From Novosphingobium percolationis (GTDB lineage Bacteria > Pseudomonadota > Alphaproteobacteria > Sphingomonadales > Sphingomonadaceae): a stretch of 64,000 bases of DNA. Location of the stretch: positions 1-64,000 of the forward strand of contig NZ_JAILYM010000007.1 in NCBI RefSeq assembly GCF_020179425.1, in the 5' to 3' direction. Shown one piece after another: positions 43,000 through 47,035 of the stretch. How positions within the stretch are numbered: the first letter of the stretch is position 1; every line of letters starts with the position of its first letter. Below the pieces are notes generated by a model. The model was given only the letters and a program-made list of their open reading frames with translations. It was not told the origin of the DNA and made no database searches. A program made the translations under genes and the position numbers.

Positions 43000-43111
43000 G
43001 ATGCCCTTGCGACGACCCCCTCGATTCGTGCCGGTTCGGCAACGCATATGGGCGGGGATATTGGCGGGAGGCTGCCGATCAGGCAATTCCCCCTATGGTC
43101 CGGTGCGGCGT

Positions 43112-43894
43112 TCAATCCCGGGACGCCGAAATCAGGAACTCGATATTGCCTTCCGGGCCGGTGATCGGGCTTTCGACAATGCCCTGGATGGCCCAGCCCT
43201 CGCCTTCCAGCCACTGCCGCACTTCGTCGCAGACGCGCGCGTGCAGGCTTGCATCGCGCACCACCCCGCCCTTGCCCACTTCCGTGCGGCCCACTTCGAA
43301 CTGCGGCTTGATCAGCGCGACCAGCCGCGTCGGCCGTGCCGCCAGCGCCAGCGGCACTTCCAGCACCTTGCGCAGGCCGATGAAGCTGGCATCGCACACC
43401 ACCCATGTCGCGGGGCGATCGATGTGGCCGGGCGTCAGGATGCGCGCGCTGGTCTGTTCGAGCACCGTCACGCGCGGGTCCTGCCGCAGCTTCCACGCCA
43501 GCTGGTTCGTGCCCGAATCAACCGCGAAGACATGCTCGGCACCCTTTTGCAGCAGCACGTCGGTGAAGCCGCCGGTCGAACTGCCGATGTCCATCGCGGT
43601 GACGCCTGCGGGATCGAGGCCGAAATGCTCGATCGCGTGGGCGAGCTTGATGCCCCCGCGCGAGACCCACGGATGATCGCGCCCGCGCACGTCGAGCGGC
43701 GCATCGGCGGCGATCGGCTGGCCTGCCTTGGCGATCTTGGTCTCGCCCGAAAAGACGAGGCCAGCCAGGATCAGCGCCTGTGCGCGGGTGCGGCTTTCGA
43801 CAAGGCCGCGATCGACCAGCAGCTGGTCGACGCGCTGCTTGGGCCCTGCCGAAGCTTTGGGAGGACGGGGCGAGGCTGGGCGGGTTGAGGTCAC
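43112..43894 (-). CDS. tlyA: TlyA family rRNA methyltransferase
   Basis: A 260-residue protein with an N-terminal S4 RNA-binding domain (QRVDQLLVDRGLVESRTRAQ) and an FtsJ-like SAM methyltransferase domain (MDIGSSTGGFTDVLLQKGA; LIKPQFEVGR). TlyA 2'-O-methylates ribosomal RNA and sets capreomycin sensitivity in mycobacteria. The GTG at 43894 was chosen because GGAAGAG sits at an ideal distance; an ATG at 43921 would overlap the divergent lipoprotein start exactly. The N-terminal tail is basic and Pro-rich. Confidence 0.9.
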   Translation of the reverse strand: MTSTRPASPRPPKASAGPKQRVDQLLVDRGLVESRTRAQALILAGLVFSGETKIAKAGQPIAADAPLDVRGRDHPWVSRGGIKLAHAIEHFGLDPAGVTAMDIGSSTGGFTDVLLQKGAEHVFAVDSGTNQLAWKLRQDPRVTVLEQTSARILTPGHIDRPATWVVCDASFIGLRKVLEVPLALAARPTRLVALIKPQFEVGRTEVGKGGVVRDASLHARVCDEVRQWLEGEGWAIQGIVESPITGPEGNIEFLISASRD

Positions 43895-43919
43895 GGCACG
43901 TCTCTTCCATAAGCCGGGC

Positions 43920-44471
43920 ATGAAGATCAACCACGCGCACCTTGCCTCGTTCGTTTCGCTTGCGCTTTCGGCCACGCTGGCGGGCTGCGCGGCAGTGCCC
44001 GTGGCCGCTCCGCCCCCGCCGCCCGCGCCCGCGCCGCGTCCCGCTCTCCCACCGCCCGCCGCCGCGCCCGCGCCGAAGGATTGGCGCGATGCGCCGCAAA
44101 CGCCGGGGGATTGGCGCTATGCACCCGTCGCAGGCGGCAGCGAGGCGCGCTTCGGGCCGGCAGGCGGCGAGGCGCTGGCCGTCTTGCGCTGCGACCGGGT
44201 CGCGCGGCGGGTGACCCTGGCCCGCAACGGCGCCGCCAGCGCGCCCGTGCCCGCCTCGATCACCACCACGAGCGAGACCCGCCCGCTGAGCGCCGCGCCG
44301 GTCGCCGGGGCCAGTCCGCCGATGGTGGCGATGGCGTTCGCCAGCAGCGACCGCCTGCTCGATGCCATGGCCTTCAGCCGGGGCCGTTTCATCTTGGATG
44401 TCAATGGCTTGCCCACGCTGGTCCTGCCCGCGTGGGCCGAAGTGGGCCGCGTGGTGGAGGATTGTCGCTGA
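43920..44471 (+). CDS. Putative proline-rich lipoprotein
   Basis: A 183-residue exported lipoprotein: signal peptide with lipobox ATLAGC (Cys22), followed by a Pro/Ala-rich tether (about residues 28-53) and a folded domain beginning WRYAPVAGGSEARFG. A pair of cysteines (about 93 and 182) could form a disulfide. I know no family name. It is divergent from tlyA and there is no obvious operon partner. Confidence 0.7.
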   Translation: MKINHAHLASFVSLALSATLAGCAAVPVAAPPPPPAPAPRPALPPPAAAPAPKDWRDAPQTPGDWRYAPVAGGSEARFGPAGGEALAVLRCDRVARRVTLARNGAASAPVPASITTTSETRPLSAAPVAGASPPMVAMAFASSDRLLDAMAFSRGRFILDVNGLPTLVLPAWAEVGRVVEDCR

Positions 44472-44641
44472 TCGCGGGAGCCGCAGCCGGAACGCGGCGC
44501 GAAGCCCCTATCCTGACGTCAAAATAATTTCATGCAAGACTTGTTGTTGGCCTCCGGATGACTCACATTGCCTTCAAGATCGAAGCAGGCTGAAGGCCTT
44601 TCGATCCAGCCACGAGAGTGGTGACTTTGGCTCAACAGCGC

Positions 44642-44656
44642 GAAAGGAGGTGATCC
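44642..44656 (+). promoter_or_regulatory. Near-perfect extended Shine-Dalgarno sequence
   Basis: GAAAGGAGGTGATCC is the exact complement of the 16S rRNA 3' end (GGATCACCTCCTTTC) over 15 bases. It ends one base before an ATG; the GGAGG core is 7 bases from that ATG. No other gene in the window has such an extended match. It decides the start of the small ORF at 44658. Confidence 0.75.
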
Positions 44657-44657
44657 G

Positions 44658-44714
44658 ATGTCTCATGGTTCAGCAGAGAGGTCGGTACAGTCCCGCGCGA
44701 GGCATTATCGCTGA
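44658..44714 (+). CDS. Short ORF with extended Shine-Dalgarno (18 aa)
   Basis: Encodes [18 protein letters not shown]. The product is small, basic and without a membrane segment. Placement behind the strongest ribosome-binding site in the window argues for real, high-level translation. A second overlapping frame in another register (44665-44763, 32 residues, ending [11 protein letters not shown]) begins 7 bases later and ends 6 bases before the following hairpin, and might be the functional product instead. Neither matches a family I can name. Confidence 0.45.
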   Translation: MSHGSAERSVQSRARHYR

Positions 44715-44763
44715 GTTTCGATTAAGCGATAAAGGCTTCGTGGGCGGCACTTCCGGCCGCTGA
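44665..44763 (+). CDS. Overlapping short ORF (32 aa), alternative product
   Basis: ATG GTT CAG opens a 32-codon frame, one base out of register with the 18-residue ORF and sharing the same ribosome-binding site at a longer 14-base spacing. The C-terminal part, [13 protein letters not shown], reads like a compact conserved peptide, and the stop is directly in front of the hairpin at 44770. The product is basic. Which of the two frames is used, or whether both are, cannot be told from sequence alone. Confidence 0.35.
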
Positions 44764-44769
44764 CCATGC

Positions 44770-44804
44770 GAAGGGCCGCTCCGGATTGACCGGCGCGGCC
44801 CTTC
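44770..44804 (+). terminator. Strong hairpin upstream of ilvE
   Basis: GAAGGGCCGC (44770-44779) pairs perfectly with GCGGCCCTTC (44795-44804); inside the loop CCGG and CCGG can pair further. The downstream sequence ACATTTATTA is AT-rich but has no uniform T run. It may end the short-ORF transcript or act as an attenuator before ilvE, whose start is 87 bases downstream. Confidence 0.6.
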
Positions 44805-44890
44805 ACATTTATTACATTCCCCTTGCTTCTTACGCAACAATCGTTCACGGAGCCGGCTCCATTACGATTCCAGGCAAGGAAATCCAAGCA

Positions 44891-45991
44891 ATGGCGACGA
44901 CCGCCGAAACCGCCCTTTCCTTCAAGCATCATCCCCACCCCGCCCCGCTGGCGGTGGATGCGCGGGCAGCGGTGCTGGCGGATCCCGGGTTCGGCCGCGC
45001 CTTCACCGATCACATGGTGGAGATCGACTACACCGAGGGACGCGGCTGGCATGATGCGCGCGTGGCGCCCTATGGTCCGATCCCGCTCGATCCGGCAGCG
45101 GCGGTGCTGCACTATGCCCAGGAAATCTTCGAAGGGCTGAAGGCTTACCGGCTTGCCGATGGCGGCATCGCGCTGTTCCGTCCGCACGCCAACGCCGCGC
45201 GCTTCAACGCCTCGGCCCGGCGCCTTGCCATGCCCGAACTGCCCGAACACCTGTTCGTCGAAGCCGTGCGCCAGCAGGTGCTGGTCGACAAGGACTGGTT
45301 CCCCACGGTCGAGGGCGGCTCGATGTACCTGCGCCCGTTCATGTTCGCCTCTGAGGCGTTCCTCGGCGTTCGCCCGGCGAAGGAGTACAAGTTCCTCGTC
45401 ATCGCCAGCCCTGCGGGCAACTACTTCAAGTCGGGTTCGCCCGCCGTGTCGATCTGGGTGTCGGACTACACCCGCGCGGCGCCGGGCGGGACGGGCGCGG
45501 CCAAGTGCGGCGGCAACTATGCCGCCAGCCTCGTCCCCACCGCCGAAGCGTTCGCGCGCGGGCATGATCAGGTGCTGTTCCTCGATGCCGCGGAGCACAA
45601 GTGGATCGAGGAACTGGGGGGCATGAACCTGTTCTTCGTGTTCGACGACGGCTCGATCCTGACGCCCGAACTGACCGGCACGATCCTGCCCGGCATCACG
45701 CGCGAAAGCCTGCTGAAGCTGGCGGCCGAGGAAGGCCTGACCGTGCGCGAGGGGCGCTACAGCCTCGACCAGTGGAAGGCCGACGCCGCTTCGGGCAAGC
45801 TGCTGGAAACGTTCGCTTGTGGCACCGCTGCGGTGGTGACGCCGGTGGGCAAGGTCGCGGGCCGCGATGGCGAATTCACGATCGGTTCGGGCGGGCCCGG
45901 CCAGCTGACGCAGAAGCTGCGGCAGAAGCTGGTGGCGATCCAGCGCGGCGATGCCGAGGACACCCACGGCTGGGTGGAGCGCATCGCGTAA
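44891..45991 (+). CDS. ilvE: Branched-chain amino acid aminotransferase
   Basis: A 366-residue fold-type IV PLP transaminase that interconverts valine, leucine and isoleucine with their 2-oxo acids. The [13 protein letters not shown] motif, [13 protein letters not shown], and the PLP lysine in [12 protein letters not shown] are visible. It is of the longer eukaryotic-like class II. The ATG at 44891 follows AGGAA at 10 bases. The upstream leader with hairpin suggests attenuation or separate transcription. Confidence 0.96.
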
Positions 45992-45992
45992 G

Positions 45993-46034
45993 CGACACCT
46001 AGAGGCACCTGAACGACACCTAACGGCACCTGAC
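45993..46034. repeat. 21-base tandem repeat (two copies)
   Basis: The unit starting CGACACCTAGAGGCACCTGA (45993) is repeated immediately from 46014 with 18 of 21 positions identical; the element GGCACCTGA occurs in both. It fills most of the 59-base gap between ilvE and the SDR gene. Confidence 0.65.
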
Positions 46035-46050
46035 CGCACCGGAGACGCAC

Positions 46051-46959
46051 ATGACCATATCGTTCGAAGGCCGCGTGGCCATCGTCACCGGCGCGGGCGG
46101 CGGGCTGGGCCGCGACTATGCGCTCGAACTCGCGCGGCGCGGCGCAAAAGTGGTCGTCAACGACCTCGGCGGCAGCCGCGACGGCATGGGTGCGTCGGAT
46201 AGCGCGTTGAAAGTCGTGGAAGAAATCGAGGCGCTGGGCGGCGAGGCCATGGCCAACGGCGGCTCGGTGACCGAATACGAGCAGATGGTCGAGATGGCCG
46301 CGCGCGTGAAGGAAAGGTGGGGGGGGATTCACATCCTCGTCAACAACGCCGGGATCCTGCGCGACAAGAGCTTTTCCAAGATGGACCCGGTCGATTTCGA
46401 GACCGTGGTCAAGGTTCACCTGACGGGCGCCGCCTTTGCCACCAAGGCGGTGTGGGACACGATGCGCGAGCAGGCCTATGGCCGCATCCTGATGACGTCG
46501 TCCTCGACCGGGCTGTTCGGCAACTTCGGCCAGACCAACTATGGCGGGGCCAAGCTGGGCGTCGCGGGCATGACCAAGACGTTGTATCTGGAGGGGGCCA
46601 AGTACAACATCCGCGTCAACACGCTGGCCCCGGTGGCGGCGACGCGGCTGACCGAGGACATCTTCCCCGAAGCCGCCTTCGCCGCGTTCTCGCCCGAAAA
46701 GGTGGTGCCGGCCGCGCTCTACCTCGTGTCCGAGGATGCGCCGACCAACGCCATCGTGGGCGCGGGTGGCGGGGCGTTCCATTGTTCATGGGTGACCATG
46801 AACCCGCCGGTGGTCCTGCCCGAAGACGAGCAGACGCTGGAAGGCTTTGCCGCCGCGTGGAACCGCATTTCCGACCGCATCGGCGACTTCGTGCCGCAAT
46901 CGGGCGGCGAGCAATCGGGCGTGATCCTGAACGCGCTGGCCGCCGCGCTGAAGGGGTAG
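46051..46959 (+). CDS. SDR-family dehydrogenase (MFE-2 / HSD17B4-like)
   Basis: A 302-residue NAD(P)-dependent short-chain dehydrogenase. Cofactor motif TGAGGGLGRD (residues 13-22), NNAG 98-101, and the catalytic Ser around 151 with Tyr164 and Lys168 in NYGGAK. The conserved ND(L/F)GG after the second strand and the long C-terminal extension resemble the 3-hydroxyacyl-CoA dehydrogenase part of peroxisomal multifunctional enzyme 2. A role in fatty-acid or steroid side-chain oxidation is likely but no CoA genes are adjacent. Confidence 0.85.
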   Translation: MTISFEGRVAIVTGAGGGLGRDYALELARRGAKVVVNDLGGSRDGMGASDSALKVVEEIEALGGEAMANGGSVTEYEQMVEMAARVKERWGGIHILVNNAGILRDKSFSKMDPVDFETVVKVHLTGAAFATKAVWDTMREQAYGRILMTSSSTGLFGNFGQTNYGGAKLGVAGMTKTLYLEGAKYNIRVNTLAPVAATRLTEDIFPEAAFAAFSPEKVVPAALYLVSEDAPTNAIVGAGGGAFHCSWVTMNPPVVLPEDEQTLEGFAAAWNRISDRIGDFVPQSGGEQSGVILNALAAALKG

Positions 46960-47035
46960 CTTGCCCGCATCGGGGTTTTCCTTGCCCTTTACCCCGCCGC
47001 ACTTAAGTTCTGTGGCCGGAGAGGAAGAAAACGCC

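Follow-up and report, generated by a model that had tools for sequence, protein, structure and literature searches.

Attenuators of amino-acid biosynthesis combine a short ORF and a hairpin with a run of regulatory codons. The CC2171 family of RNAs (Rfam RF01867), from Caulobacter, reportedly goes back to the work of Landt et al. in 2008. A 215-nt RNA annotated as RF01867 was detected in sequencing products from Mesorhizobium huakuii (PMC5596092); the excerpts of that paper and of PMC11701678 name the family and mention no ORF for it, and those of PMC5521070, PMC12559287, PMC3927594, PMC5082802 and PMC7566282 hold nothing bearing on this RNA. In Sinorhizobium meliloti, 33% of 54 non-annotated translated sORFs are described as lying on annotated sRNAs; SEP1 is the most efficiently translated of these 54 high-confidence sORFs, which the older annotation lacks, and tagged SEP1 is visible on a Western blot (excerpts of PMC10117765).

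Here we describe an element upstream of ilvE in Novosphingobium percolationis, within a 64,000-nucleotide stretch of DNA that was analysed as a whole (hereafter the window). With a probability of about 0.7, we read it as a stand-alone RNA, probably translated at a high level, whose ORF length and engagement with ribosomes, and not its peptide sequence, are under selection.

Results

The original prediction had placed at this site a 15-base complement of the 16S rRNA tail, with its GGAGG 7 nt before an 18-codon ORF, and the sequence of the site and of the 16S gene bears this out. GAAAGGAGGTGATCC at 44642-44656 (+ strand) is an extended Shine-Dalgarno sequence, complementary without mismatch over 15 nt to the 16S tail GGATCACCTCCTTTC of this genome; its GGAGG (44646-44650) stands 7 nt upstream of the ATG at 44658. 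Across the whole genome of 41 contigs, the only sites for the 15-mer GGATCACCTCCTTTC are this element and C8:3856, whose context (...GCGGCTGGATCACCTCCTTTCTAAGG) is the 3' end of the 16S rRNA. When all ATGs of the window, 1598 over the two strands, are ranked by predicted pairing with the 16S tail, 44658 comes first (-24.9 kcal/mol) and 44665 second (-23.9 kcal/mol), because the two share one ribosome-binding site (RBS). The next-strongest predicted pairings belong to the ATGs at 2360 (+) and 58406 (-), at -20.0 and -19.4 kcal/mol.

We then compared the element with described RNA families. Rfam at its curated cut-offs gives no match in the window; RF01867 showed only in E-value mode, where a scan of 421 bases aligned 44634-44801 to the full length of the model (1-159 of 159) with an E-value of 1.8e-9 and 49.5 bits (E 4.5e-9 and 49.5 bits in a whole-genome scan). 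Because this match is full-length and significant and its score lies below the curated RF01867 cut-off of 75 bits, the element is, as judged by the covariance model, a diverged relative of CC2171 and not a filed member of the family. One other weak Rfam match, to IRES_Bip on the minus strand (E 0.17), was set aside as fortuitous. In the class, 61 of the 289 genomes sampled have an RF01867 match, 9 of them above the cut-off, and at E <= 0.001 the model matched 1 of 14 control genomes, that of Caulobacter vibrioides; at E <= 0.01 one unrelated control genome, Deinobacterium chartae, was matched as well, so RF01867 matches near E 0.01 are uncertain.

Many orders of the class carry this RNA gene, in which the extended 16S complement and the frame and rough length of the ORF are kept. 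A blastn search with 44470-44895 against 61 genomes gave matches in 36 of the 37 from the window's genus and in 0 of the 24 from other families; the weaker matches mostly align about bases 155-341 of the 426-base query, which correspond to a core at 44624-44810. The one genus genome without a blastn match also has no RF01867 match. An alignment of 30 oriented genus loci shows a near-invariant core with invariant GCGAAAGGAGGTGA and CCGATGTCTCATGGT and zero indels inside the 18-codon ORF, and the sequence directly 3' of the stop is variable in length. Beyond the genus, the pattern GAAAGGAGGTGRTCCNRTGTC (at most one mismatch) occurs in 83 of the 385 genomes from the class, as a single copy in almost all of them, against 1 genome for the reversed control pattern; in the family, the corresponding counts are 169 of 199 genomes and 2. 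One genome of the family (G072) carries two pattern matches, C1:805112 and C1:2922049, one of which is of a different type (L045, MSHCHALNAASG...).

Among the 30 family genomes that are negative for the pattern, taken together with the blastn-negative genus genome, 16 of 31 match RF01867 at E <= 0.01, and 12 of these 16 at E <= 2.1e-5. Eight pattern-negative relatives that were inspected carry an 18-20-codon MSHGS ORF, but their 16S match is only 12 nt long (GAAAGGAGGTGACCG), which we count against our best reading. The extended complement is also present in RF01867 matches retrieved without any pattern. A further set of named loci, at least 119 stretches (L061-L179, of which 80 served for the first analyses and the other 39 were examined afterwards), was fetched by a pattern containing the RBS and the start; conservation of those letters there is by construction, and ORF length and stop were kept out of the pattern. 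All eight named loci that were scanned (Brevundimonas, Phenylobacterium, another member of the Caulobacteraceae, Methylobacterium, Pseudolabrys, Thioclava, Sphingomonas and an unplaced alphaproteobacterial MAG) match RF01867 at full length, four of them above the cut-off.

Searches of plasmid and phage collections with 44624-44812, and of the plasmid collection with the element of L109, a locus titled Rhizobiaceae, gave no match. Two MAGs stand out by their titles: in one, titled Candidatus Kuenenia (L098), the element encodes exactly the peptide of L040, likely through contamination of the MAG, and the element of a Pararhizobium MAG (L118; MSKAILEIEVRKIGGNGI, 18 codons) is similar to the Rhodobacterales type, which may reflect transfer or misbinning.

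The small ORF with a very strong RBS that had been predicted is real, and the conserved frame is the 18-codon one (44658-44714, + strand), whose start, stop and length are kept in 30 of 30 genus loci; the stop is TGA in 27, TAA in 2 and TAG in 1. The overlapping ORF in the other register (44665-44763) is present as predicted and shares the RBS, but it is 32 codons long in only 12 of the 30 genus loci and runs from 7 to 57 codons elsewhere, and it was rejected. For a wider comparison of ORF length we used 87 non-redundant loci from 137 records (L001-L140, with L053 removed as a duplicate of L001, and L108 and L132 left out for having too little sequence after the start). The ORF has 18-26 codons in 83 of these 87, as against 9 in the +1 frame and 13 in the +2 frame among the loci listed. 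Dinucleotide shuffling of the 87 loci (300 rounds) yields such lengths in 11.6 ± 3.1 loci on average and in 20 at most; loci with fewer than 170 bases downstream of the start entered each round unchanged, and the only possible effect of this is a higher null. The named loci agree: among the matches listed, 108 of the 116 with a stop inside the available sequence have 18-26 codons. The remaining eight have 14, 14, 15, 15, 29, 31, 33 and 56 codons, so the length is not strict (14-15 codons in four of 116, 29-56 in four). In the later-examined 39 loci, a stop falls in the available sequence for 36, with ORF lengths of 18-26 codons in 32 and of 14, 15, 15 and 29 codons in the remaining four. Both GTG and ATG serve as starts in the named loci, and all three stop codons occur. 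In L119 the same extended RBS precedes what is apparently another gene, a 56-codon ORF whose start resembles a signal peptide, and L159 and L175 have alike 15-codon ORFs, MSHG(P/Q)AKRSERVIRG, below the usual range.

The encoded peptide behaves differently from the frame. Over 19 codons of the short ORF, variable sites in the genus are distributed 9/8/3 by codon position, compared with 166/129/342 over 365 codons of ilvE from the same loci; by this comparison, the peptide sequence is unconstrained in the genus. The original prediction had proposed synonymous substitutions as the check on which frame is real: frame and stop are indeed kept, yet nearly all substitutions change the amino acid. Peptides are order-specific (MSHGSA... 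in Sphingomonadaceae, VSREVLERGVGT... in Rhodobacterales, VSHCHQP...TWTVASG in Methylobacterium), and across orders they have little in common beyond an initial MS or VS. The HY near the C-terminus, part of the genus-conserved peptide, sits at the stem of hairpin P3 (TTATCGCT/AGCGATAA, 44705-44732, + strand), which has the stop codon at its stem-loop border. Together, these observations suggest that translation itself may matter more than its product.

The kept frame, start and stop would equally be expected of an ordinary small-protein gene whose 18-aa peptide is the functional product. SEP1 of S. meliloti (23 aa; excerpts of PMC10117765) is a possible counterpart, and the element of L109 contains a 23-codon acidic ORF with a computed pI of 4.05, compared with 4.18 given for SEP1 in that source; the identity of SEP1 with this element is a lead drawn from two properties, length and pI. 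A functional peptide is hard to square with the distribution of variable sites over codon positions and with the dissimilarity of the peptides between orders, and we consider this explanation unlikely.

A second alternative is a base-pairing sRNA in which the short ORF is a safety stop, keeping ribosomes attracted by the site away from the 3' end. The lack of peptide conservation in the genus fits such a role, as does the typing of RF01867 as sRNA in Rfam. Yet a safety stop could be anywhere, and few loci stop before codon 18 (1 of the 87 non-redundant ones, and 4 of the 116 named ones, at codons 14-15); further, the 16S match of the site is far beyond chance and recurs across the class. We therefore regard a mere safety stop as doubtful, and continue with the reading of a stand-alone RNA whose translation is itself selected.

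Codons 3-6 of the ORF are complementary to the sequence directly 5' of the terminator. In the window, this long-range helix, P1, pairs CATGGT with ACCATG; its 5' strand (CATGGTTCAGC) lies at 44664-44674 and its 3' strand (GCTGACCATG) at 44759-44768, adjoining the terminator-like hairpin (both + strand). Elsewhere the pairs are CATTGTC/GACAATG, CATTGCC/GGCAATG, CATCGT/ACGATG, ATGAGATT/AATCTCAT, CATGAAT/ATTCATG and others. Six or more consecutive Watson-Crick P1 pairs form with the locus's own partner region in 48 of 87 loci, compared with a mean of 14.4 and a maximum of 24 when partners are swapped among the 87 (500 rounds). With another window and scoring, applied to 82 of the 87 loci, the own mean is 5.73 versus 4.44 for swapped partners (swapped maximum 4.89); this test omitted the 5 loci in which no terminator was detected, and the count of 48 took all 87. 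In many loci, then, codons 3-6 and the foot of the terminator are linked by a covarying helix. Codons 7-9, taken as a control stretch, reach 22 with their own 3' region versus a swapped mean of 9.4 and maximum of 19, a weaker excess than that of P1; the helix may extend further, or the region may be generally structured, and we count this excess against our best reading. The absence of P1 in this form from Rhodobacterales-type loci counts against it too.

The consensus fold of the 30 genus sequences has 8 of 54 predicted pairs changed on both sides, located in the terminator-like hairpin and in P3, and the wider P3 stem includes two pairs with both-side changes in the genus. On the same 30 sequences, RNAalifold prefers a fold that hides the RBS, in which CACTTCC (44748-44754, + strand) can pair with GGAGGTG of the RBS. 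This preference also counts against our best reading; the CACTTCC/GGAGGTG pairs hardly vary in the genus, so the alternative fold is weakly tested by it. For the window sequence, the probability of P1 pairs is 0.4-0.8 with the 5' leader and 0.02-0.44 without it, and forcing P1 costs 0 with the leader, 0.4 kcal/mol in 44624-44812 and 3.0 kcal/mol in 44634-44806. In these models P1 and other folds appear to compete, and folding is not decisive. A separate candidate, in which the codons for TW(I/V)VAS in Rhizobiales would mimic the 16S tail and hide the RBS, does not generalise, the partners of GGAGG differing between the loci listed.

Upstream of the RBS, the genus alignment contains a conserved promoter-like block at 44520-44569 (+ strand; CAAAATAATTTCATGCAAGACTTGTTGT, then TGACTCACATT), which would place the transcription start at about 44572-44577. 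ACAAGACTTG recurs in 13 Sphingomonas-type loci, and so, less strictly, does TGATTCACAT; in the six Rhodobacterales-type loci checked, TTGAC blocks lie 47-48 nt upstream of the RBS site. That these upstream blocks are conserved both within the genus and among Sphingomonas-type loci, together with the TTGAC blocks of the Rhodobacterales type, suggests that the element has a promoter of its own. At the other end, the perfect 10-bp hairpin that had been predicted is present (44770-44804, + strand; stem 44770-44779/44795-44804), with a further 4 bp possible through CCGG/CCGG, and it is conserved with compensatory changes in the genus. Bounded by such a promoter and this terminator-like hairpin, the transcript would be roughly 230 nt long. 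Against a stand-alone gene count a consensus scan, which found no sigma-70 consensus promoter in 43000-47000, and a terminator scan, which did not list the hairpin at 44770-44804, along with the weak U-tract (ACATTTATT) that follows it. Upstream of the element, 43920-44471 encodes a putative lipoprotein (LAGC near the N-terminus, Pro/Ala-rich) with relatives in genus loci; scanned as 43728-44468, it had no Pfam match.

An ilvE leader peptide with transcription attenuation, which the original prediction had raised with some doubt, is very improbable: ilvE does lie downstream in the same direction in 27 of 30 genus loci, but the two starts lie anywhere between 223 and 919 nt apart, the stretch examined contains no ilvE in the other 3, the space between element and ilvE is occupied in L012 by a convergent, reverse-strand ORF (1711-2364) whose start resembles a signal peptide, the 18 residues include 1 Val and no Leu or Ile, and in other orders the nearest Pfam-matched genes encode ExoD, an M74 peptidase (about 1.7 kb from the element), an acetyl-CoA synthetase, an HI0933-like protein, or SMC and MutS. 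A leader or attenuator of ilvE is for these reasons not supported, and the element keeps no constant position directly before an operon; the remark in the original prediction that the peptide is not rich in branched-chain residues holds. Among the 20 proteins scanned, 9 had no Pfam match.

Discussion

On our preferred reading of a stand-alone RNA selected for ribosome engagement and ORF length, the 18-codon ORF is most likely translated at a high rate. Ribosome profiling of Caulobacter by Schrader et al. bears on this: in the excerpted text, intergenic ncRNA regions are reported as not translated, which we count against our best reading, and two previously predicted ncRNAs as translated (PMC4117421).

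How such an RNA would work can be sketched tentatively as part of this reading. The 30S subunit would dock on the 15-nt site, with initiation in competition with the helix that begins at codon 3. Over its course of about 18-26 codons, a translating ribosome would then open this helix, releasing the helix's 3' strand along with the inner structure. The RNA could in this way alternate between two states, one closed and one opened by the ribosome, and so signal or exploit how available ribosomes are; the peptide would be a by-product. In a more far-reaching version, which we think possible but rather unlikely, a class-wide RNA would sense or titrate free 30S subunits docked on its 15-nt 16S complement, its state following ribosome availability as translation of a mini-ORF, limited in length and free in sequence, opens the conserved long-range helix.

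Whatever the mechanism, an RNA filed as non-coding keeps a near-constant ORF length, and not a peptide, behind the strongest predicted 16S pairing of the window. Selection on translation is thereby separated from selection on its product, and the sRNA and small-protein catalogues of Alphaproteobacteria may partly describe the same genes.

Amino-acid biosynthesis attenuators share with the element a short ORF, a hairpin and, in this genus, a branched-chain gene downstream; they differ in that the element has no run of regulatory codons, stands at a variable distance and has other neighbours elsewhere. In dual-function RNAs such as Spot 42 and rnTrpL/peTrpL of Sinorhizobium (excerpts of PMC10117765), a small RNA likewise carries a short ORF. 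That source describes rnTrpL as a trp attenuator that is leaderless and encodes a functional peptide, whereas the element has an extended RBS and a peptide that is not conserved; the evidence that its ORF is translated is evolutionary, namely that frame, stop and length are kept. With CC2171 there are two differences, the score of the window element below the curated cut-off and the Rfam entry, which types the family as an sRNA gene and as printed names no ORF. The likeness to CC2171 extends from the full-length covariance-model match to the architecture, since RF01867 matches elsewhere, including those in the named Caulobacteraceae, have the same RBS, short ORF and terminator hairpin, and many of them have P1 as well.
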